Assembly: GCF_030315975.1 (NCBI RefSeq)
Contig: NZ_JASXSZ010000002.1
Location: 434,001 to 498,000 of the forward strand
Origin: Microbacterium candidum
GTDB lineage: Bacteria > Actinomycetota > Actinomycetes > Actinomycetales > Microbacteriaceae
DNA: 64,000 nt
Direction of reading: 5' to 3'
Shown one piece after another: positions 22,455-56,232 of this stretch. Below the pieces are notes generated by a model. That model was not told where the DNA came from, did no database searches, and saw nothing but the letters and a program-made list of their open reading frames with translations. Position 1 is the stretch's first letter; each line of letters starts with the position of its first letter. Position numbers and translations under genes: made by a program.

Positions 22455-23690
22455 TCAGGCGAGGGCTGCTGCGGCGGCCTCGTCCTCCGTCGTCGCGACG
22501 AGCTGACCGCACGCGCCGTCGATCTCCTTGCCGCGGGTGTCGCGGAGGGTCGTCGGGATGCCGGCGTCGTTGAGCCGGCGGACGAACTCGTCCTGCACGG
22601 CCTTCTCCGACGAGGTCCAGATGGAGCCCGGCGTGGGATTGAGCGGGATGGGGTTCACGTGCACCCACCCGCGGCCGCGGGCGTTGAGCTTCTCGGCGAG
22701 GAGATCGGCGCGCCACGCGTGGTCGTTCATGTCCTTGATGAGGGCGTATTCGATCGAGACGCGGCGGCCGGTGCGTTCGAAGTAGGCGCGCGCCGCATCC
22801 AGCGCCTCGTCGACCTTCCAGCGCGAGTTCACCGGGATGAGCTCATCGCGCAGCTCGTCGTCCGGGGCGTGCAGCGACAGGGCGAAGGTGACGGGGATCT
22901 CCTCGTCGGCGAGCTTCTTGATCGCCGGCACGAGCCCCACCGTCGACACCGTGATGCCGCGGGCGCTCATCCCCATGCCGTGCTTCTTGTCGGTCATCAC
23001 GCGCACCGCCTGCATGACCCGGGCGTAGTTCGCGAGCGGCTCGCCCATGCCCATGAACACGATGTTGGTGACGCGCTCCTCCTCGTGCCCGACACCCCGC
23101 GGGTCGCCGAGGCCGCCGGCGCGGATGAGCGCGTTCGCCCGCACGACCTGGTCGATGATCTCGGCGGCGGACATGTTGCGCGTGAGGCCCGCCTGCCCGG
23201 TCGCGCAGAACGGGCAGTTCATGCCGCAACCGGCCTGGCTCGAAACGCAGAGCGTGATGCGGCCGGGGTAGCGCATGAGGACGGACTCGACGAGCGCGCC
23301 GTCGTGCAGGCGCCACAGGAACTTGATCGTGTCGCCGCGGTCGGTCTCCAGGCGCCTGACCTCCGTCAGAAGCGGCGGGAGGAGCCCCGCGACGAGCTCT
23401 TCGCGGCCGGATGCGGGCAGGTCGGTCATCGCGGCGGCGTCCCACGCGTAATGGGTGAAGTAGTGCTTCTCGAGCTGCTTCGCGCGGAATCCCGGCAGTC
23501 CGAGCTCCTTCAGCCTCTCGACGCGCTCCTCGGGCTTCAGGTCCGCGAGGTGCACCGGCGGCTTGCCGCGGCGCGGGCTCGCGAACTGGAGCAGCGGGCG
23601 GCCGTCGGCATCCTTCTTCTGCGACCAGCCCTCGGTCTTCGGCCGCACCTGGGTGACACGGGTGGTGCTGCTGCGGGGAGAGTCGGTCAT
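22455..23690 (-). CDS. rlmN: 23S rRNA (adenine2503-C2)-methyltransferase RlmN
   Basis: This 411-aa radical SAM enzyme methylates A2503 of 23S rRNA and A37 of some tRNAs. The cluster motif CGMNCPFC (CX3CX2C) is intact, as are the [14 protein letters not shown] region, [10 protein letters not shown] and the C-terminal [16 protein letters not shown], which contains the catalytic Cys. I prefer the ATG at 23690 to a longer start because TAGCCT lies 7 nt before it. It is divergent from the LysE gene. Confidence 0.95.
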
Positions 23691-37047: not shown

Positions 37048-40000
37048 ATGCCCGAAGGACAGGTGCTGGAGTTCTCCCGTCTCACGAAACAGTTCGGAGC
37101 AGTGCACGCGGTCTCGGATCTCACCGCCCGGGTGCAGCCAGGAGCCGTCACCGGATTCCTCGGTCCGAACGGAGCCGGAAAGACCACCACCCTGCGGATG
37201 CTGCTCGGCCTCGTCCGCTCCACCTCCGGGACCGCGACGATCGGCGGCGCGCCGTACGCGAAGCTGACCCGGCCCCTGCAGACCGTGGGCGCCGTGCTCG
37301 AGGCATCCAGCTTCCACCCCGGCCGCACGGGCGCGAATCATCTGAAGGTGTACGCGCAGGCGGCGGGGATCGCGACGTCTCGCATCGACGAGACCCTCGG
37401 ACTGGTGGGTCTCGCGGATGCCGCGGGCCGCAAGGTCGGCGGCTACTCGCTCGGGATGCGCCAGCGCCTCGGCCTCGCCTACGCGCTGCTCGGCGACCCG
37501 GGAGTGCTGGTGCTGGACGAACCGGCGAACGGACTCGACCCGGAGGGGATCAAGTGGCTGCGCGGCTTCCTGCAGCAGCTCGCCCGCGAGGGCCGCACCG
37601 TTCTGGTGTCCTCGCACCTCCTGACCGAGATCCAGCAGACGGCGGACGCCGTGCTCATCCTCGCGAACGGCCGCCGCGTGTTCAGCGGCGCCATCTCCGA
37701 CCTCGTCGACCCGTCGGAGCAGGTGACGATCGTGGACTCGACGGACCGTGCCGCGCTCGTCGGCGCACTGCGCGCGGCGGGCATCGAGTCGGAGGTGCTC
37801 CGCTCGGGTGTCAACGTCCGCGGTGCCGAGCCCGTCGATGTCGGCAGGGCGGCGGCGGCAGCAGGCGTCGCCCTCACTGCGCTGCAGCGACGCGGCCCCG
37901 CACTCGAGGAGGTGTTCCTCGAGCTCGTCAGCGGCGTGCGCGTGCACCCGAGCGCGAACCCCGACTTCGACGGGCGGTCCGATGCGGGCGCCGCGCTCGC
38001 GCTGGGGGTCGCAGGCGCTGCGGCGGCGGCACCGGGTGTCATGCCGGGCGAAGATCGCCGCACGGATGAAGAGGCAGCCGCCGGGGCTGCGGGTGCTGTC
38101 ACTGCGGGTGCTGTCATCCCCGCAACGGCCGATGACTCGACTGCACCGGCCGGCGCTGCCGCCGTCACGTCGACGGGCGATGCGTCCGCTGCATCCGCGG
38201 GGGACGGCAGGACTTCAGAGAAAGCCGAGAGCGCCGATGAGGGCGGTGCAGACGCAGACGGTGCCGATGAAGGCGGTGCCGACGCAGGCGGAGCCGACGC
38301 AGGCAGTGCCGACGCAGGCGGCGCCGATGAAGGCGGAGCCGACGCAGACGGAGCCGACGCAGACGGTGCCGACGCAGGCAGTGCCGACGCAGGCAGTGCC
38401 GACTCACGCGGAGCCGACGCCGCCCCGGCGGCGGTCGCTGCGACAGCGGTCGCTGCGGCAGCGGCGGGACACGGGGCGGGACCGGGCACAACGCCCGGAC
38501 CGGATCGCGCGACTTCGTCGGATGCCACAGCTTCCGTGGCCGGGAAGAATGCGGCTGGCGCGGCGCTCGCCGGCGCGGGCGCGGTCGCCGCAGGTGCATT
38601 GATCGCGGGCGTCGCCGCGCATTCTGACGACACTGAGCGCGACGACGATGCCGAACTCGGACAGGACGGGAGTGCCGGTGATGACGCCGGGCCTGGCGGA
38701 CACGCGGGCACCGACGAAGACGAACCGGCCGACGGATCCGCCGTCGCCGGCGAGGGGAAAGCGACCGACGAGGACGGAGGCGCCGACGAACGCACCGCGA
38801 CCGACGAGGACGCAAACACCAGCAACGGCACGGCGTCCGACGACGGTGCGGTGATCGACGGAGGCCTCGCGACGGCGGAGGCAGCGGATGTGGACGATGT
38901 CCGGAATACCGCTGCGAGTGATGCCGATTCGGACACGAATCGCGCGGCCGAGGGCGGCGCGGCATCCGAGAAGAATCTCGCTGCCGACAGCGACGCCGAG
39001 ACCGGGACAGACCGCACAGCCGACGGCGACGCCGACTCGGGCACCGATCAGGACGACCCCGACGGCACCGACTCGACCACCGACCAGGGAGCGGGCGACA
39101 CCGACTCTGTGACGGATCAAGCAGCCCGGGGCACGTCCTCGGCGGACGACCTCGCCGAGGACACACATGCCGCCGCGGACGCTGGAGCAGCGGCGACCTC
39201 GGTCGACGCGGATGCTGCGGGGATCGGGCCTGGCACGGCGGAGGATTCGGGCCAGGCGTCCACCGAGAACGCCGACGACGACCCCGACGCGGATGGCCGC
39301 GCTGAGCCCGAGGCCCACTCCGGATCAGCAGTTGCTGCATCCGTTGAGGAGCCTGCCGCGGTCACCGGTGTCACGGCACTCGCTGCGCTCGGGCTCCACA
39401 ATGACCGCGCGTCGGCGGATGGCCGGCAATCACTCGCTTCCGATCCGGCGTCGTCCGACGACGGGGCTACGGACGACCCGCTGTCGTGGATCACGGCGGC
39501 GGAGAACGACGCAGCCGCCCGCCGCGCAGCGGCCGTCGCGAACGCCGCTAAGAAGACGGACGAGCCCGAGGCTCCGCGGCCCGCATACTCCGTCGCGACG
39601 ACGGGGATCATCGATGTCGTTCCGCTCGCCGCGACCGCCGATGCGGACGAAGAGACCGACATCGACGTCGACGACACCGACGAGGTCGCCTATGAGGACG
39701 ACATCGACTCGATGTACGTGACGAACTCGGCCCATGCCGGCGAAGGCGAGAAGACCGACTCGGATGTCGCAGCCGACGCGTTCTTCCGCGCGTTCGACAC
39801 GTCGACAGGTGCCGCGGCAAAAGACCAGGCCGCCGAGCCCGCCCGGACCGACGACACGGGAGAACCCTCGTCGGATACGAGTGAGGGGCCAGAACCGGCG
39901 GGCAGCGACGTGGACGGCCCGGACGGCCCCGACGAGGACCCATCGGAGCCAGATGAGCGTGAGGATGCTGAACCCGCATCCGGCGAGCCCTCCGTGACCG

Positions 40001-40209
40001 ACGAGTCGGACGGGTCGGACGGGTCGGACGAATCGAGCAGTCCCGACCAGCCGGAAAGCGACCATCCGGAAGACGCGCAGCCGGAAGACGCGCAGCCGGA
40101 AGACGCGCAGCCGGGCGGCGAACAGCCCGAAGGCGACCTACCCGAAGACGCGCAGCCCGAAGACGAGCAGCCCCGCAAGGGTGACCACGAGGAAGGTGAC
40201 GAGCGATGA
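37048..40209 (+). CDS. ABC ATPase fused to a ~750-residue acidic repetitive tail
   Basis: A 1053-aa protein. Residues 1-305 are a normal ABC exporter ATPase: Walker A GPNGAGKTTT, signature YSLGMRQRLGLA, Walker B VLVLDEPANGLDPEG, SSHLL switch. Residues about 306-1053 are low-complexity, extremely rich in Asp, Ala, Glu and Gly, with a pentapeptide array (AD[AE][GD]G type, about residues 396-456), two Ala-rich hydrophobic patches (about 460-475 and 505-530) and PEDAQ repeats near the C-terminus (about 1007-1045). Usual members stop near 300 residues. The stop overlaps the permease ATG, so the long frame is read to its end. SD GGAG precedes the ATG. Confidence 0.88.
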   Translation: MPEGQVLEFSRLTKQFGAVHAVSDLTARVQPGAVTGFLGPNGAGKTTTLRMLLGLVRSTSGTATIGGAPYAKLTRPLQTVGAVLEASSFHPGRTGANHLKVYAQAAGIATSRIDETLGLVGLADAAGRKVGGYSLGMRQRLGLAYALLGDPGVLVLDEPANGLDPEGIKWLRGFLQQLAREGRTVLVSSHLLTEIQQTADAVLILANGRRVFSGAISDLVDPSEQVTIVDSTDRAALVGALRAAGIESEVLRSGVNVRGAEPVDVGRAAAAAGVALTALQRRGPALEEVFLELVSGVRVHPSANPDFDGRSDAGAALALGVAGAAAAAPGVMPGEDRRTDEEAAAGAAGAVTAGAVIPATADDSTAPAGAAAVTSTGDASAASAGDGRTSEKAESADEGGADADGADEGGADAGGADAGSADAGGADEGGADADGADADGADAGSADAGSADSRGADAAPAAVAATAVAAAAAGHGAGPGTTPGPDRATSSDATASVAGKNAAGAALAGAGAVAAGALIAGVAAHSDDTERDDDAELGQDGSAGDDAGPGGHAGTDEDEPADGSAVAGEGKATDEDGGADERTATDEDANTSNGTASDDGAVIDGGLATAEAADVDDVRNTAASDADSDTNRAAEGGAASEKNLAADSDAETGTDRTADGDADSGTDQDDPDGTDSTTDQGAGDTDSVTDQAARGTSSADDLAEDTHAAADAGAAATSVDADAAGIGPGTAEDSGQASTENADDDPDADGRAEPEAHSGSAVAASVEEPAAVTGVTALAALGLHNDRASADGRQSLASDPASSDDGATDDPLSWITAAENDAAARRAAAVANAAKKTDEPEAPRPAYSVATTGIIDVVPLAATADADEETDIDVDDTDEVAYEDDIDSMYVTNSAHAGEGEKTDSDVAADAFFRAFDTSTGAAAKDQAAEPARTDDTGEPSSDTSEGPEPAGSDVDGPDGPDEDPSEPDEREDAEPASGEPSVTDESDGSDGSDESSSPDQPESDHPEDAQPEDAQPEDAQPGGEQPEGDLPEDAQPEDEQPRKGDHEEGDER
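38233..38415 (+). repeat. 15-bp tandem array inside the ABC ATPase tail
   Basis: About twelve 15-bp units encode ADEGG, ADADG, ADAGG or ADAGS. Unit boundaries keep the frame. Variation is mostly at third positions plus D/E and G/S swaps, which indicates expansion by slippage with selection to stay open. Confidence 0.85.
40066..40180 (+). repeat. PEDAQ-type repeats at the end of the ATPase tail
   Basis: Units of 15 bp encode PEDAQ three times in a row, then degenerate PGGEQ, PEGDL, PEDAQ and PEDEQ, just before the stop codon. Confidence 0.75.
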
Positions 40210-41067: not shown

Positions 41068-41463
41068 CTATTCGGCGACGAGTTCGGCCACGTCGGCCAG
41101 TTCGTCGCCGACGCTGTCGAGGCGCAGCGCCTGCACGAGCGCGACCCCGTGACGGGTCGTCAGCACGAGACGCTGGAACTCGTCGTGGCCCTCGAGGTCG
41201 ATGACGACGCTCGGCTTCCGGCCCCGCAGCATCACGAAGTCGCGGCCTCCCGCCGACTTCCACGAGCCGGCGGCGACGGTGACGGGGAAGTTCGTGCCCG
41301 GGTCGGGAACTCCGCGCAGCCACGTCCACGCATCATCCGTCAGCTGTACCTTCGCGATCGCGGACCGCTCGACGGTGACGTCGCGGCGGCGGAACGAGAG
41401 CGCCCGCTCCGTCCGTGAGAGCACGACTCGGAGCTGCGCGGAATCGAGCAGCAGCGTGACCAT
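41068..41463 (-). CDS. Hypothetical protein with a PH-like pattern
   Basis: A 131-aa protein of mainly beta-strand pattern: LRVVLSRTERALSFRRRDVTV, VQLTDDAWTWLRGVPDPGTN and a later KPSVVIDLEGHDEFQRLVL segment, similar to small actinobacterial proteins with a PH-like fold. Function unknown. I start at ATG 41463, with CAGACT 6 nt upstream. It converges with the ABC-2 permease. Confidence 0.65.
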   Translation of the reverse strand: MVTLLLDSAQLRVVLSRTERALSFRRRDVTVERSAIAKVQLTDDAWTWLRGVPDPGTNFPVTVAAGSWKSAGGRDFVMLRGRKPSVVIDLEGHDEFQRLVLTTRHGVALVQALRLDSVGDELADVAELVAE

Positions 41464-41505
41464 TCCCCCAGTCTGCCAGCGCACCCCGATGCCGAACCTC
41501 GTGTT

Positions 41506-41711: not shown

Positions 41712-44294
41712 GTGACTCTCGACAGCGCCACCGTCAGGGCCATCCGCGACGCCCCCGCCCCGTCCGAGGACGCCCGCGAGCTGCCCGAAAGCACCGGGAT
41801 CGACTCGACACGGATCGATCCCGCACACATCGATGCAGCCCTCGACCGCACCGCCTCGGGCGGTCGCGTCGAGGTCGACGACGCGGAAGCGCTGCTCCAC
41901 GCGCGCGGCGCGCAACTGGAGCAGTTGCTCGGCCTGGCATCCGCGCTGCGGGATGCGGGGCTCGCCGCCTCCGGCCGCGCGGGCGTCATCACCTACTCGC
42001 GCAAGGTCTTCATCCCGCTGACGACCCTCTGCCGCGACCGCTGCCACTACTGCATCTTCGTCGACACCCCCGGCCAGCTCCTGAAGCTCCACAAGCCGGT
42101 GTACATGACGCCTGAGCAGGTCCTGTCGGTCGCGCGCCAGGGCGCGGCGCTCGGCTGCAAGGAGGCGCTCCTCACGCTCGGCGACCGCCCCGAGGAGCGG
42201 TGGCCTGCAGCCCGCCAGTGGCTCGACGACCACGGCTACGCGTCGACCCTCGACTACGTCGCTGCGATGGCACGCCTCGTGACCGCGGAGACGGGACTCC
42301 TCGCCCACGCGAACCCCGGCGTCATGTCGTACGACGAGCTCGTCGCCATGCGCCCGGTGGCGCCGTCGATGGGGATGATGCTCGAGACGAGCTCGCGGCG
42401 CCTGTTCGAGGAGCCCGGCCAGGTGCACTACGGGTCGCCCGACAAGGATCCGGCGGTCCGCCTGCGGGTGATCGAGGATGCGGGTCGCGCACGAGTGCCG
42501 TTCACGACCGGCATCCTGGTGGGCATCGGCGAGACGGTGCGCGACCGGGCGGAGTCGCTCGTCGCGATCCGCGCGGCGCACGAGCGCCACGCCTCCGCAG
42601 GTCTCGGCCACGTGCAGGAGGTGATCGTCCAGAACTTCCGCGCGAAGGACCACACGGCCATGCGCGGGGCGGCGGATGCGGAGACCCTCGAGTATGTCGC
42701 CGCCGTCGCCGTCGCCCGGCTCGTCATGGGACCGGACATGCGGATCCAGGTGCCGCCGAATCTGTCCGACGTCACGGAGCTCGATCTCCTCGTGCGAGCC
42801 GGCGCCGACGACTGGGGCGGGGTCTCGCCGCTCACCGCCGACCACGTCAACCCGGAACGTCCCTGGCCGCACCTCGACGACCTCGCCGCGCGCACCGCGG
42901 ACCTCGGCTTCGAGCTGCGCGAACGCCTCACCGCCCAGCCGCCGTACGTCGTCGATGCCGAGGAGTGGATCGATGCGGGGCTGCGGCCCGCGGTGCTGCG
43001 GCTTGCGGGGGTCGATGGATTGGCCGCTCGGCGCTTCACAGAATCCACCCGCAACTCGACGGACGACCCCTCGACAAGCTCGGGGGCCGGGAGTCATCCG
43101 AACTCGAACGCCAACCGGTCGCCGAGCCTGTCGAGGCGTCGCACCCACGACGGACAGGTGGAAGACCCCTCGACGAGCTTGGGGGTCGTGAACGCGCGAC
43201 CAGTCGGGCAGCTCATCGAGCGGGCGGCGGCGTCCCCCGCATCCCTCGACGACGACGAGTGGGTGCGCCTCCTCGAAGCGACGGGCGACGACCTCGACCT
43301 CCTCACCGCGACCGCGGACGACGTGCGTCGCTACACGATCGGCGAGGCGGTCACCCTCGTCGTCAACCGCAACCTCACCTCCTCCGGATTCCGGAGCACC
43401 CCCAGCACCGAAGACGACACGGACCCGCAGACGTTCACGCTCTACGACGTCGCCGCGATCGCGGTGGATGCCGCGGACCTCGGCGCCACCGAGCTGTGTG
43501 TCCAGGGCCGGCTGCCGGCATCCGAAGACCCGTCCGCCTATCTCGAGATCGTCCGTACGGCGAAGCGCGCCGTACCGAGCCTTCACCTGCACGCCTACCG
43601 CCCGCAGGACGTATGGGATCTCGCCGACCGCGGCGGATACGGCCTCGAGGCCGCGCTGAGCGCGATGAAGGACGCCGGCGTCGACACCGTCCCCGGCACC
43701 GGCGTCAAGATCCTGAGCGAGCGGGTGCGCGCACTCGTCGCCCCCGGCGACCTTGAGATCGACCGCTGGATCGAGGGCATCACGGCGGCGCACCGCGCGG
43801 GCTTCCACTCCACGAGCGTGCTGTTCTACGGCCACGTCGAGACCGCGCGCGAGCGGATCGCGCACCTCCGGGAGCTCATCCGCATCCAGCGCGCCTCGAC
43901 GAGCTCGGCGACCGGAGGCGGCTCGGCGACCGGAGGCGGTTTCACCGAGTTCGTTCCGATCCCCCTGCCCGGGCCGCAGGGCGGCATCCCCCTCGTCCCC
44001 GGGCGCGCGGACGTCGACGAGCACCGTGCCGTGGTCGCGGTCTCGCGCCTGATGCTCTCCGGATCGATCCCGCACATCCAGATCCCCTGGACGCGGCTGG
44101 GCCTTCCGACCGCGGGCGTCCTGCTGCAATCGGGCGGCGACGACCTCGGCGGCGTACTCCTCGACGGGCGCGTGAAGCCGGCGGCGGGCATCGAGCAGGG
44201 CCTCGAACTGCCGGTGGCGGATGCGGCGGCCCTCGCCGCACGCATGTTCCGGCCGTTCCGGCTGCGCACGACCGACTACCAGGTCGCGACATGA
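41712..44294 (+). CDS. fbiC: FO synthase FbiC (CofG-CofH fusion) with a degenerate CofH half
   Basis: An 860-aa F420 biosynthesis protein. The N-terminal CofG half has the intact cluster motif C107-X3-C111-X2-C114 (CRDRCHYC). The C-terminal CofH half (about 490-860) is otherwise recognisable: LVVNRN, ATELCVQGRLP, HLHAYRPQDV, DTVPGTGVKIL, TSVLFYGHVE, GGFTEFVPIPL, SHIQ-like PHIQIPW. But the CX3CX2C that should follow NRN552-554 is absent; residues 555-585 contain no Cys at all. In-frame family B repeats form the linker (about 451-493) and a second insertion (about 728-743). GTG start; the 3' end overlaps the flavoprotein gene. Confidence 0.9.
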   Translation: MTLDSATVRAIRDAPAPSEDARELPESTGIDSTRIDPAHIDAALDRTASGGRVEVDDAEALLHARGAQLEQLLGLASALRDAGLAASGRAGVITYSRKVFIPLTTLCRDRCHYCIFVDTPGQLLKLHKPVYMTPEQVLSVARQGAALGCKEALLTLGDRPEERWPAARQWLDDHGYASTLDYVAAMARLVTAETGLLAHANPGVMSYDELVAMRPVAPSMGMMLETSSRRLFEEPGQVHYGSPDKDPAVRLRVIEDAGRARVPFTTGILVGIGETVRDRAESLVAIRAAHERHASAGLGHVQEVIVQNFRAKDHTAMRGAADAETLEYVAAVAVARLVMGPDMRIQVPPNLSDVTELDLLVRAGADDWGGVSPLTADHVNPERPWPHLDDLAARTADLGFELRERLTAQPPYVVDAEEWIDAGLRPAVLRLAGVDGLAARRFTESTRNSTDDPSTSSGAGSHPNSNANRSPSLSRRRTHDGQVEDPSTSLGVVNARPVGQLIERAAASPASLDDDEWVRLLEATGDDLDLLTATADDVRRYTIGEAVTLVVNRNLTSSGFRSTPSTEDDTDPQTFTLYDVAAIAVDAADLGATELCVQGRLPASEDPSAYLEIVRTAKRAVPSLHLHAYRPQDVWDLADRGGYGLEAALSAMKDAGVDTVPGTGVKILSERVRALVAPGDLEIDRWIEGITAAHRAGFHSTSVLFYGHVETARERIAHLRELIRIQRASTSSATGGGSATGGGFTEFVPIPLPGPQGGIPLVPGRADVDEHRAVVAVSRLMLSGSIPHIQIPWTRLGLPTAGVLLQSGGDDLGGVLLDGRVKPAAGIEQGLELPVADAAALAARMFRPFRLRTTDYQVAT
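43062..43189. repeat. Family B repeats in the fbiC interdomain linker
   Basis: Three units occur: GACCCCTCGACAAGCTCGGG (43065-43084), GCCGAGCCTGTCGAGGC (about 43121-43137) and GACCCCTCGACGAGCTTGGG (about 43165-43184). They are read in frame as DDPSTSSGAG, SPSLSRR and EDPSTSLG. Confidence 0.85.
43893..43939 (+). repeat. Family B remnant and 18-bp duplication inside fbiC
   Basis: CCTCGACGAGCTCGGCGACC is followed by two copies of CTCGGCGACCGGAGGCGG (43904-43921 and 43922-43939), read as SSATGGGSATGGG in a loop just before GGFTEFVP. Confidence 0.75.
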
Positions 44295-45769
44295 CGCACC
44301 ACGAGGTCGTGGTCGTCGGGGCGGGCTTCGCGGGGCTCGCCGCGACGATGGCCCTGCGCGACGCCGGCATCGACGACGTGCTGGTCGTCGAGCGTGCGGC
44401 ATCCCTCGGCGGCACGTGGCGGGACAACACGTATCCGGGGGTCGCGTGCGACATCCCGAGCCACCTCTACGGCTTCGCCGCGCACCCCAACCCGGACTGG
44501 TCCGGCGTGTACGCGAACGGCGCGGAGATCCGCGCGTACCTGGAGCGTGTCGCCGCGGACGAGCGCATCGCACCACGGCTGAACACGCCCCTCACGTCCG
44601 CGAGCTGGGACGACGATCGGTGGCGCATCGACCTCGGCGGGCGGCATCCCGAGACCGTCACCGCGGACGCTCTCGTCCTCGCGTGCGGGCGGCTGACCGA
44701 GCCTCGCATCCCGTCCGTCCCCGGTCTCGCCCGATTCCCCGGCCCGGTGTTCCACTCGTCCCGGTGGCGGCACGATGTCGACCTCCAGGGCACCCGCATC
44801 GCGGTCGTCGGCACGGGGGCGTCCGCCGTGCAGCTCGTCCCCGAGCTCTCCCGCACGGCGCACGTGACGCTCTTCCAGCGGACTCCGGCATGGATCGTCC
44901 CGCGCGGAGCGCGCGCGTACAGCGAAGCCGAGCGCATGCGGTTCCGCGAGCGTCCGGACGAGCTCGCCGCCCTCCGCGCCGAGCTGTACGACGAGGGCGA
45001 GGAGCGATTCGCTTCGCGATCGGGGGATGCCGCGGCATCCGCCCTGGCCCGCGAAGTCGCGCTCGCCCACCTGTACGACCAGCTCGACGACCCGGCCCTG
45101 CGAGAGCTGCTGACTCCGGACTACGCCTTCGGCTGCAAGCGGGTGCTGCTGAGCGACGACTTCTACCCCGCGATCGCGTCCGGAGCCGTGACGCTCGAGG
45201 CATCCGCGCTGGCCACCGTCGAGGGGAGCACGGTCGTCTCCGCGGATGGCGCGCGTCACGAGGTCGATGCCATCGTCTTCGCGACCGGGTTCGCCTCCAC
45301 GCAGCAGCCGTATGCCGAGCTCGTGACCGGCGAGCGGGGCACGCTCGCCGAGCACTGGGCGGGCGGGATGACGTCCTTCGCCTCGACCGTCGTGAGCGGC
45401 TTCCCGAACCTCTTCGTCCTCGACGGCCCGAACGCCTCGCTCGGGCACAACTCGTCCGTCCTCATGATCGAGGAGCAGGCCGCCTACGCCGCGCGCACGC
45501 TCGCCGGCCGCTTCGAGGACGACCGCGACGGCGTGCTGCGCGTCGCGCCGGAGGCGGAGAGCGCGTACACCGCAGAGATCGACCGGGCCGCGGCATCCAC
45601 CCCCTGGATCACCGGAGGATGCCGCAACTGGTACGTCGACGCGCGGTCCGGGCGCCTCACCCTGCTGTGGCCGGGCACCGTGGGCGCCTTCCGCGAGCGT
45701 CTCGCGCGGGCCGACGGCTCCGAGTTCGAGCCCTCTCGACGGTTCACCCGAGAGCGCGAGGTCGCGTGA
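44291..45769 (+). CDS. Baeyer-Villiger-type flavin monooxygenase
   Basis: A 492-aa FAD- and NADPH-binding monooxygenase. First Rossmann motif GAGFAGLAA near the N-terminus, second at VVGTGASAVQ (about residue 175), and the BVMO fingerprint FPGPVFHSSRW between them (F-x-G-x3-H-x3-W). GGTWRDNTYPGVACDIP is also family-typical. Substrate likely a ketone or related compound. It is translationally coupled to fbiC (4-bp overlap) and to cofC (one-base overlap), an unusual place for such an enzyme. Confidence 0.88.
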   Translation: MTHHEVVVVGAGFAGLAATMALRDAGIDDVLVVERAASLGGTWRDNTYPGVACDIPSHLYGFAAHPNPDWSGVYANGAEIRAYLERVAADERIAPRLNTPLTSASWDDDRWRIDLGGRHPETVTADALVLACGRLTEPRIPSVPGLARFPGPVFHSSRWRHDVDLQGTRIAVVGTGASAVQLVPELSRTAHVTLFQRTPAWIVPRGARAYSEAERMRFRERPDELAALRAELYDEGEERFASRSGDAAASALAREVALAHLYDQLDDPALRELLTPDYAFGCKRVLLSDDFYPAIASGAVTLEASALATVEGSTVVSADGARHEVDAIVFATGFASTQQPYAELVTGERGTLAEHWAGGMTSFASTVVSGFPNLFVLDGPNASLGHNSSVLMIEEQAAYAARTLAGRFEDDRDGVLRVAPEAESAYTAEIDRAAASTPWITGGCRNWYVDARSGRLTLLWPGTVGAFRERLARADGSEFEPSRRFTREREVA

Positions 45770-46371
45770 TGTGGACCATCGTCATCCCGGTCAAGCACAC
45801 CGACCACGGCAAGTCGCGCCTCGCGGTGCCGGGGCTGCGGCGCACCGAGCTCGCCCGCGCGATCGCGCTCGACACGATCGCAGCGGCGGTGGATGCGGCG
45901 CGCGTCGTCGTCGTGACGTCGGATCACACGGTCGCGCGCGAAGCGCAGGTACTGGGGGCGACGATCGCGGCGGATGCCGGCGGCGGCATCGATGCGGCGA
46001 TCGCGGCAGTCATGCCGGCGACCGGATTCCGTGCGGCTCTGCTCGGCGACCTGCCGGCCCTCCGCTCGGAGGATCTGACAGATGCGCTGCGGGATGCCGC
46101 ATCCCGGCCCCGCGCGGTCGTCCCGGATGCCGAGGGCACGGGCTCGACGCTCGTGACCGCGACCCCGGGCCAGCCGTGGGCGTCGGCCTTCGGCCACGAC
46201 TCGTTCGCCCGCCACGTCGCGCTCGGGTGCGTGCCACTCGCGGTGGCCTCGACGTCGAGCCTGCGCCGCGACGTCGACACGCTCGCCCAGCTCGAGGCCG
46301 CCGCGTCTCTGGGACTCGGGCCGCGTACGGCGGCCGTGTTCGCCACCCGGATGCTGACTGCATCTGCCTGA
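45769..46371 (+). CDS. cofC: Phosphoenolpyruvate/2-phospholactate guanylyltransferase (CofC/FbiD)
   Basis: A 200-aa nucleotidyltransferase that charges PEP or 2-phospho-L-lactate with GMP to donate the side chain of F420. The N-terminal [15 protein letters not shown] is the family signature, followed by [16 protein letters not shown] and [13 protein letters not shown]. The ATG begins on the last base of the upstream stop codon (TGATG). The product is used by CofD, encoded at 55.3-56.2 kb. Confidence 0.92.
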
Positions 46372-46402: not shown

Positions 46403-47419
46403 ATGACCCTCACCCTCGGCTACAAGGCCTCCGCCGAGCAGTTCGGCCCCCGCGAGCTCGTCGAGATCGCCGTCGGCGCGGAGCGCCACGGATTCGAATC
46501 GGTGTTCGTCAGCGACCACTTCCAGCCGTGGCGGCACACCGGCGGGCACGCACCGTTCTCCCTCTCGTGGATGGCGGCGGTCGGTGAGCGGACCTCGACG
46601 ATCCGCATCGGCACGAGCGTGCTCACCCCGACGTTCCGGTACAACCCGGCCGTCATCGCGCACGCGTTCGCGACGATGGGATGCCTCTACCCCGATCGTG
46701 TGATCCTCGGCATCGGCACGGGCGAGGCGCTGAACGAGGTCGCGACCGGCTTCCGCGGCGCGGGCGACCAGGACTGGCCCGAGTTCAAGGAGCGCTTCGC
46801 GCGCTTGCGTGAAGCCGTCCGCCTCATGCGGGCGCTGTGGGCGGGCGACCGGGTGACGTTCGAGGGCGAGTACTACTCGACCCACGACGCCTCGATCTAC
46901 GACCGTCCCGAGGGCGGCATCCCGATCTACATCGCGGCCGGCGGCCCCGTGGTCGCGAAGTACGCGGGCCGCGCGGGCGATGGGTTCATCTGCACGTCGG
47001 GCAAGGGCCCCGAGCTCTATGTCGACCAGCTCATCCCCGCGGTCGCGGAGGGTGCCGAGGCGGCCGGCAAGGACCCTGCATCCATCGACCGCATGATCGA
47101 GATCAAGCTCTCCTACGAGCACACGCTCGATGCCGCGCTCGACAACACGCGCTTCTGGTCGCCGTTGTCGCTCTCCAAGGAGCAGAAGCACGACATCACC
47201 GACCCCGTCGAGATGGAGCAGGCCGCGGACGCGCTGCCGATCGAGCAGATCGCGAAGCGCTGGATCGTCGGCACCGACCCGGACGAGGTGGTGGCGCAGA
47301 TCGGCCAGTACATCGACTGGGGCTTCAACCACCTCGTCTTCCACGCGCCCGGTCAGGACCAGGAGCGCTTCCAGACCCTCTTCGAGAACGAGCTCGCCCC
47401 GCGCCTGCGGGCGCGGTGA
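46403..47419 (+). CDS. fgd: F420-dependent glucose-6-phosphate dehydrogenase
   Basis: A 338-aa luciferase-fold enzyme that reduces F420 with glucose 6-phosphate. Family features: [51 protein letters not shown] and [12 protein letters not shown]. The His in the SDHFQPW loop and the Glu in GTGEA match known catalytic positions. GAAGGAG precedes the ATG. Its location directly after fbiC-BVMO-cofC makes a self-contained F420 supply and reduction block. Confidence 0.93.
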
Positions 47420-55287: not shown

Positions 55288-56232
55288 TCAGGCGGCGAGA
55301 GCGGCGCGGACGATCTCGGCGGAAGCCGCCGCTTCCGTCATCCAGAGCGGTGCGACGACCGCGCGGATGCCGAGCGCCTCCACGGCAGGGACGAGGAATG
55401 CGTCCTCCTCGGCGACGAGCCACGCGTCGAGGATGCCGTCCGCCGACCGCGCGCCGTAGTGCGCGGCGACCGCATCCGCCCGCGTCTCGACGCCGATCGC
55501 CGTGAGGCACACGTCGGCCATGCCGCGGACGACGCGTCCGCCGATGATGCCGGACACGCCGACGACCTTCGCGCTCGTCTGCCGCAGCGCCTCCCGCATG
55601 CCGGGGACGGCGAGGATCGGGCCGATCGACACGACCGGGTTGGACGGCGCGAGCAGCACGACATCGGCGTCGGCGATCGCCTCGACGACTCCCGGGGCGG
55701 GAACCGCCGCGGCCATGCCGGGGTTCTCGAAAGCCGCGGGGGCGAGGGCCGCGCGGTGACGCGTCCACCACTCCTGGAAGTGCATGCGGCTGCCGTCGCC
55801 GAGCACGATGTTCGTGTCGACCTCCGCATCGGTCATCGGCAGGAGCCGAACGCCGAGCGGCCACCGCTCCTGCATCCGTGCGAGCACCTGCGTCGGCGTG
55901 AGTCCGTCGCGGAGCCACCCCGTGCGGGCAAGATGCGTGCCGAGATCGAGGTCGCCGAGGGTGAACCACGGCCAGCCCGCGCCCCACGCCTGAAGCTCCT
56001 CGTTGACGCGCTCGCTGTCGCCGGCACGACCCCACCCGCGGTGCGCGTCGTTGACGCCCGCGAGCGCGTAGACGATCGAGTCGACGTCGGGCTGCAGCCG
56101 GACGCCGGACAGCCAGAGGTCGTCGCCGGTGTTGACGACGACGGTCGCCTCATCCTCCGGGCCGAGCGCCTCGCGCACGCCGAGCGTGAACTTCGATCCG
56201 CCGACGCCGCCGGCCAGCACGACGACCTTCAC
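55288..56232 (-). CDS. cofD: 2-phospho-L-lactate/PEP transferase CofD (FbiA)
   Basis: A 314-aa enzyme that joins the activated phosphoenolpyruvate or phospholactate made by CofC to FO, yielding (dehydro)F420-0. Motifs: [15 protein letters not shown] at the N-terminus, [10 protein letters not shown], the [12 protein letters not shown] segment and [15 protein letters not shown]. The GTG start overlaps the hemL stop (GTGA). It is separated by 8 kb from the other F420 genes and tied to heme genes instead. No fused CofE domain. Confidence 0.93.

Follow-up and report, generated by a model that had tools for sequence, protein, structure and literature searches.

FbiC proteins with a CofH half lacking the cluster motif, and a neighbouring Baeyer-Villiger-like monooxygenase, in Microbacterium candidum and other actinobacteria: a candidate O2-dependent variant of FO synthase

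FO, the precursor of F420, is formed by CofG and CofH, which are fused in FbiC. A review calls this route, with its two radical S-adenosylmethionine (radical-SAM) enzymes, universal (PMC8498797). In the canonical CofH reaction, as given in the same review, a p-hydroxybenzyl radical derived from tyrosine adds to 5-amino-6-ribitylaminouracil (5-A-6-RU) and the adduct is then oxidised; the words 'Baeyer' and 'monooxygenase' are absent from that text (PMC8498797). The window analysed here is a stretch of 64,000 nucleotides from Microbacterium candidum (assembly GCF_030315975.1, contig NZ_JASXSZ010000002.1, positions 434,001 to 498,000 of the forward strand), and it carries an FbiC gene whose CofH half lacks the cluster motif CX3CX2C. 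A CofH without this motif is termed CofH* in the following, and its fusion to CofG is termed FbiC*.

Compared to canonical CofH (TIGR03551) and the canonical FbiC fusion, the variant has the same barrel, the same fusion to CofG and adjoining cofC and fgd genes, and 59 alignment columns are conserved in both types. It differs in having no CX3CX2C, in an altered QGG Gly, HAFS Ser and substrate-side segments, and in scores below the curated cut-offs. The gene is followed directly by one for a type I Baeyer-Villiger-like flavin monooxygenase. Based on the comparisons presented below, we consider it likely that CofH* and this monooxygenase together take the place of radical-SAM CofH in FO synthesis, using chemistry that depends on O2 and involves no radical. 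Among the titles and abstract openings covered by our literature search, with subscription papers and preprints outside its range, none dealt with a cluster-less CofH or with a link between CofH and such a monooxygenase.

The cluster loop of FbiC*

The gene fbiC* (41712..44294, forward strand, GTG start) encodes a protein of 860 amino acids. Its CofG half (approximately residues 90-430, 41979..43001) was held to be intact in the original prediction, and was indeed found to combine an intact cluster motif, CRDRCHYC, with a score of 451 bits against TIGR03550 (cut-off 213.35). CRDRCHYC is the sole CX3CX2C of the whole protein. The CofH* half (residues 504-860, 43221..44291) is predicted to be a radical-SAM-type barrel and lacks the motif, the latter as stated in the original prediction. 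The canonical cluster loop NFTNxCYTGCRFCAFAQ is replaced by a variable stretch at residues 555-585 (43374..43466), which reads LTSSGFRSTPSTEDDTDPQTFTLYDVAAIAV. Its translation agrees with the earlier description of a Ser/Thr/Asp-rich segment with zero Cys, located between NRN (residues 552-554, codon 552 beginning at 43365) and GATELCVQG. Against the CofH equivalog domain TIGR03551, the CofH* half scored 280 bits (247 in a second search), which is below the cut-off of 374.1. The whole protein yielded 906.4 bits with the FbiC/CofGH equivalog NF006687, again below the curated cut-off (1018).

A frameshift or sequencing error was considered as the cause and rejected. In line with the original prediction, the two other forward frames of 43365-43470 contain no CX3CX2C, and the loss extends over the whole clade. 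A chance CRLRCWGC was observed in one reverse-strand frame of the same segment, and this frame has two stop codons. A sequencing fault is excluded because the motif is equally absent from all 47 FbiC proteins read in the genus and from 83 of the 100 genomes read in genus and family together. An alignment also disposed of replacement cysteine ligands elsewhere in the fold: C596 is the only invariant Cys among 28 aligned CofH* sequences, and canonical CofH conserves it too.

A dispersed repeat, CCTCGACRAGCTYGGG, has copies within the reading frame of fbiC* itself, at the CofG-CofH linker (43061-43191) and again in a short insertion in the CofH* barrel (43894-43909). The repeat has 21 matches in the window with at most two mismatches, compared to 0.64 expected.

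Distribution and conservation of CofH*

Three partly overlapping samples were used: genus and family together, an order-level sample of 396 genomes, and a set of named loci. With the whole FbiC* protein as query, FbiC was detected in 54 of 99 Microbacterium genomes and in 70 of 299 genomes of the family sample, 67 of these outside the genus. The resulting 121 FbiC-bearing genomes were read in 100 cases (47 of 54 in the genus, 53 of 67 elsewhere in the family), and the loci were classed by counting CX3CX2C motifs. The named loci were obtained by scanning genome contigs with a CofH* alignment, and statements on them refer to the best 80 of 581.

The motif was missing from CofH in 47 of 47 Microbacterium proteins and in 36 of the 53 read elsewhere in the family. 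Among the 100 genomes, 82 have a single CX3CX2C, that of CofG, and 17 have both motifs; in the remaining one (G252), the two proteins are encoded separately on different contigs, CofG having its motif and CofH being cluster-less. The NRN-to-GATE segment has a constant length of 43 residues in the 17 canonical sequences and ranges between 22 and 63 residues in the 82 cluster-less ones measured. Two genera (codes g12 and g77) each contain both types. Cluster-less members were found in Microbacterium, Cryobacterium, Humibacter, Subtercola, Promicromonospora, Arthrobacter, Kineococcus, Aeromicrobium and Gordonia, together with some bins of metagenome-assembled genomes, the labels of which are possibly wrong. 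Canonical CofH occurs, among others, in Streptomyces, Mycobacterium, Nocardia, Rhodococcus, Geodermatophilus, Nocardioides and Kineococcus xinjiangensis.

The original prediction had proposed a search for a stand-alone CofH in the rest of the genome, and this search detected none. Likewise, no CofH above the TIGR03551 cut-off was detected in 76 cluster-less genomes tested or in seven named ones, and a canonical CofH elsewhere in the genome was rejected as an explanation for all of these. If FO is made, a route other than radical-SAM CofH must therefore supply the CofG substrate. Among the 76 genomes, one (G079) has two FbiC* copies; double rows in two others (G068, G380) represent one gene in pieces.

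In a tree calculated by a quick method after removal of the cluster-loop columns, a single branch with an SH-aLRT support of 100 separates CofH* (58 rows) from canonical CofH (25 rows). CofH* forms a single clade marked by fixed residues particular to it. Comparison of 35 CofH* with 12 canonical sequences yielded two CofH*-specific fixed switches, S630R and D710E (35/35). CofH* no longer has the cluster loop or the second Gly of QGG, the Ser of HAFS is changed, and the segments PFxHxxAPVYLAG and LMEETISRMAGxxNGS are lost.

For the ten closest pairs within the genus, dN/dS ranged from 0.06-0.15 for CofG, 0.10-0.23 for CofH* and 0.10-0.22 for the monooxygenase. The medians over all pairs (0.21, 0.30 and 0.33, respectively) rest on high dS, and the ten closest pairs were therefore relied on. 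Judged from these substitution rates, CofH* is under purifying selection and functional; the possibility of a pseudogene is ruled out by dN/dS together with the clade's own conserved residues. The same observations bear on one of the three options in the original prediction, namely that F420 synthesis is broken, and on the related view that the pathway is vestigial in this organism. In favour of this reading is the absence of a motif required for CofH chemistry. It is at odds with the fixation of the variant in the genus members read and its presence in many other genera, with the low dN/dS, with the conserved residues particular to CofH* and with an intact operon and tail pathway, in which CofC, CofD, CofE and FGD are all kept. 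We regard it as highly improbable. The two other options, that another protein performs the CofH reaction and that the CofH half has a new non-radical role, are combined in the interpretation favoured here.

An AlphaFold model of CofH* shows a confident barrel (pLDDT 91.4, pTM 0.90), and CofH* is thus predicted to keep the radical-SAM-type fold despite the lost motif. The closest solved fold is that of aminofutalosine synthase MqnE (PDB 6xi9/6xig; Z 34.4, 2.6-2.8 Å over 316-317 residues), a radical-SAM enzyme of menaquinone synthesis, from which CofH* differs in having no cluster motif. PylB, HydE, BioB, HydG and the tyrosine lyase ThiH were the next folds.

The monooxygenase and its linkage to CofH*

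The monooxygenase gene (44291..45769, forward strand, 492 amino acids) has no place in the account given by the original prediction. Its start codon overlaps the stop codon of fbiC* (ATGA). In the genus and family genomes, each of the 83 cluster-less CofH genes is followed, at a distance of at most 914 nt, by a similar monooxygenase gene in the same orientation, as against none of the 17 canonical genes. The order-level sample contained 63 genomes with a CofH match, 32 above the cut-off (465-537 bits) and 31 below it (190-345 bits). With coordinates matched by hand, the monooxygenase was adjacent and on the same strand in 30 of the 31 below-cut-off cases; the exception, G407, is a gene fragment. 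All 29 of these 30 that were read are cluster-less, G486 being the one unread. The monooxygenase was adjacent to 0 of the 32 above-cut-off CofH, 7 of which have one elsewhere, a count that could miss a divergent neighbour because only three first-look candidates per genome were scored. This gap is partly covered by the full-flank scan of the named loci, in which a monooxygenase stood beside 34 of 34 cluster-less CofH and 0 of 46 canonical ones, 44 of the latter having at least 2 kb of downstream sequence.

The linkage does not depend on fusion to CofG. Family f15 (including Kineococcus rubinsiae), family f8 and Gordonia sp. ABSL49_1 have a stand-alone CofH* gene followed by the monooxygenase, and CofG is a separate nearby gene in the eleven such loci in which it was also detected (L183, L191, L196-L200, L205, L206, L208, L300). 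The stand-alone CofH* of G252 also adjoins a monooxygenase. The gene order is CofH*-monooxygenase-CofG in Gordonia and FbiC*-monooxygenase-CofC in Aeromicrobium flavum. The pair of CofH* and monooxygenase travels without the CofG fusion.

These arrangements are relevant to the alternative that the single cluster of the CofG half serves for both radical reactions, CofH* being only a scaffold for 5-A-6-RU or the intermediate and the monooxygenase ancillary. Such a division of labour would be consistent with the CofG motif, which is kept in 82 of 82 one-motif FbiC* loci as well as in the separate CofG of G252, and with the predicted retention of the CofH* barrel. However, it is improbable, since several families have CofH* apart from CofG and next to the monooxygenase, and it leaves unexplained why a monooxygenase was found to adjoin each CofH* read but not a single canonical CofH.

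The best sequence matches of the monooxygenase among solved structures include steroid (4ap3), phenylacetone and cyclohexanone monooxygenases. Its structural model (pLDDT 89.8) superimposes on phenylacetone monooxygenase (PAMO, 1w4x/2ylw) with a Z of 40.0 and a root-mean-square deviation of 2.4 for 469 aligned residues, and its whole-length fold is predicted to be that of a type I Baeyer-Villiger enzyme. All 25 sequences compared share C53, D54 and R284. From the alignment to 4ap3, we take them to be the counterparts of PAMO Cys65, Asp66 and Arg337, which are named as mutated residues in PDB titles. The fold and the Arg and Cys-Asp positions are common to this protein and the three known enzymes; its sequence FPGPVFHSSRW fits FxGxxxHxxxW, with R in place of the P or D that closes the fingerprint. 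It differs from known Baeyer-Villiger monooxygenases in its sequence (approximately 26-32% identity among the matches listed) and in belonging to a clade of its own that is tied to CofH*. In a tree of 57 rows, the CofH*-linked monooxygenases form one clade with a support of 99, from which 16 unlinked relatives are separated.

Some flavin monooxygenases N-oxidise amino acids, and this protein has a weak match to the Pfam family Lys_Orn_oxgnase. It could N-oxidise the amine of tyrosine, followed by C-C cleavage, or oxidise 5-A-6-RU, with CofH* catalysing the coupling. This alternative draws the same support from the linkage to CofH*, yet the whole-fold match is to Baeyer-Villiger enzymes, and we regard it as doubtful. 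N-hydroxylases were not among the 50 fold matches listed for the model, which is not decisive against N-oxidation.

A putative O2-dependent route to FO

We infer that the cluster-less strains make FO and that the pair of CofH* and monooxygenase performs the CofH step. FbiC* and the neighbouring monooxygenase would then constitute an O2-dependent variant of FO synthase, in which the CofG half retains the radical-SAM ring closure, and the CofH* barrel and the flavoenzyme make the intermediate that radical-SAM CofH produces from tyrosine and 5-A-6-RU. In our view, the canonical reaction amounts in net terms to attaching the equivalent of a p-hydroxybenzyl cation at C5 of 5-A-6-RU. PAMO converts phenylacetone by Baeyer-Villiger oxidation with migration of the benzyl group. 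By analogy, the flavoenzyme might oxidise a compound of the type 4-hydroxyphenyl-CH2-CO-R, e.g. 4-hydroxyphenylpyruvate or a related arylketone, in such a way that the 4-hydroxybenzyl group migrates. This would yield a 4-hydroxybenzyl ester able to eliminate to p-quinone methide, which the nucleophilic C5 of 5-A-6-RU, bound in the CofH* barrel, could trap to yield the CofG substrate without a radical. This Baeyer-Villiger and p-quinone methide chemistry as a second, O2-dependent and non-radical FO route is put forward tentatively.

Alpha/beta hydrolases are common partners of ester-forming Baeyer-Villiger monooxygenases. A gene for one was found in 12 of 83 family-level CofH* loci (nine genus codes), in 4 of the 34 named CofH* loci and in G577 (in all L115, L136, L140, L142, L148, L145, L133, L143, L114, L144, L134, L113, L201, L244, L245, L252 and L257). 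It occupies the gap between the CofH* and monooxygenase genes, and the Cryobacterium protein matches Pfam Abhydrolase. Its occurrence in some members of the clade is in keeping with ester chemistry, yet it is dispensable. With 12 of 83 family-level loci and none in the genus, the hydrolase was rejected as a general member of the clade and is therefore accessory at most. Unlinked monooxygenase relatives in four genomes (G503, G703, G216, G667) adjoin an alpha/beta hydrolase as well. These distributions suggest that the F420 locus acquired an operon of monooxygenase and hydrolase, from which the hydrolase was often lost afterwards. Four further loci (L202, L211, L212, L213) contain a monooxygenase and alpha/beta hydrolase pair with no CofH in the stretch read, and may resemble ancestors of the recruited pair.

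Several points weigh against an O2-dependent replacement of CofH, the three-candidate limit of the order-level count among them. The hydrolase is absent from all 47 Microbacterium loci, and its nucleophile elbow, inspected by eye, is GYSxG in some proteins and has Ala or Gly instead of Ser in others. The Baeyer-Villiger fingerprint is FxGxxxHxxxW(P/D), and the residue following the tryptophan is R in the monooxygenase studied here, not P or D. Both clades have a single origin, and the linkage counts are therefore not independent events; the co-occurrence reflects one origin, long joint inheritance and, probably, transfer as a unit. The monooxygenase could also act elsewhere and be hitch-hiking. 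In a phylum sample, a monooxygenase homologue was detected at E<=1e-100 in 48 of 396 genomes. CofH* was located beside one of 17 new loci read (G1065, with a loop sequence identical to that of the Gordonia locus), and the other 16, among them G847 with its 51% identity, have no CofH* within 1.5 kb. Overall, monooxygenase relatives with 42-51% identity had no CofH neighbour in the stretch read in 27 of 28 loci (11/11 and 16/17). Monooxygenase homology alone was thus rejected as a marker of CofH*, and it gives no substrate, because close relatives are common without CofH. Finally, no published measurement of FO or F420 in an organism with a cluster-less genome came up in our literature search.

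ThiO and ThiH, and likewise HemF and HemN, are O2-dependent and O2-independent enzymes that stand in for each other. An oxygen-using enzyme would take over a radical-SAM step here too; the difference is that the old radical-SAM fold persists, cluster-less, beside the new enzyme. If the proposed replacement is correct, it is a clear case of this kind, and the universality of the two-radical-SAM route fails for a large group of aerobic actinobacteria, comprising the nine cluster-less genera listed above. The pair could also provide an O2-tolerant first step for F420 production. Surveys that require a curated CofH score would miss such producers, as all 76 cluster-less genomes tested fall below the cut-off.

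F420 pathway genes and other features of the window

As stated in the original prediction, further F420 genes are located nearby. The gene cofC (45766..46371, forward strand; TIGR03552 121.7 bits, cut-off 105) is followed by fgd for F420-dependent glucose-6-phosphate dehydrogenase (FGD; 46403..47419, forward strand; TIGR03554 625 bits, cut-off 420). On the reverse strand, cofD (55288..56232) scores above the TIGR01819 cut-off, with the model match at 55300-56226. CofC, CofD, CofE and an F420-dependent enzyme, i.e. the gene content of an F420 producer, are present. In the genus, CofD above the cut-off was found in 54 of 54 genomes with FbiC* and in 4 of the 45 others; the corresponding numbers for CofE are 53 of 54 and 9 of 45. 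The exception for CofE (G091, 68% completeness) has the gene in two pieces. Because CofD and CofE accompany FbiC* in this way, F420 is probably still made in the genus. FGDs and FSDs have been noted in Microbacterium in an earlier publication (PMC6279831).

The pathway genes also bear on the alternative that FbiC* and the monooxygenase make another deazaflavin or a different product instead of FO, and that the nearby F420 genes use this variant. The substrate-side residues of CofH* are changed too, with the loss of PFxHxxAPVYLAG and LMEETISRMAGxxNGS, and CofC, CofD, CofE and FGD-like genes occur without any FbiC match in four Microbacterium genomes; both observations would be compatible with a different product. 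On the other hand, CofC, CofD, CofE and FGD are kept with scores above the equivalog cut-offs and CofG is well conserved, so that we judge this alternative quite unlikely. The four genomes without an FbiC match (G066, G002, G061 and G077; L303-L306) may rely on FO salvage.

A protein of 138 amino acids without a Pfam or NCBIfam match is encoded on the reverse strand at 41068-41484, and is found beside fbiC* in 39 of 40 genus loci (L071-L110). The frame at 37048-40209 (1053 amino acids) encodes an ABC transporter ATPase with a very long, low-complexity C-terminal extension rich in Asp, Ala and Gly. A radical-SAM domain match (PF04055, 40.7 bits, approximately 22713-23078, reverse strand) was detected in a frame of 458 amino acids at a distance of 19 kb from fbiC*.

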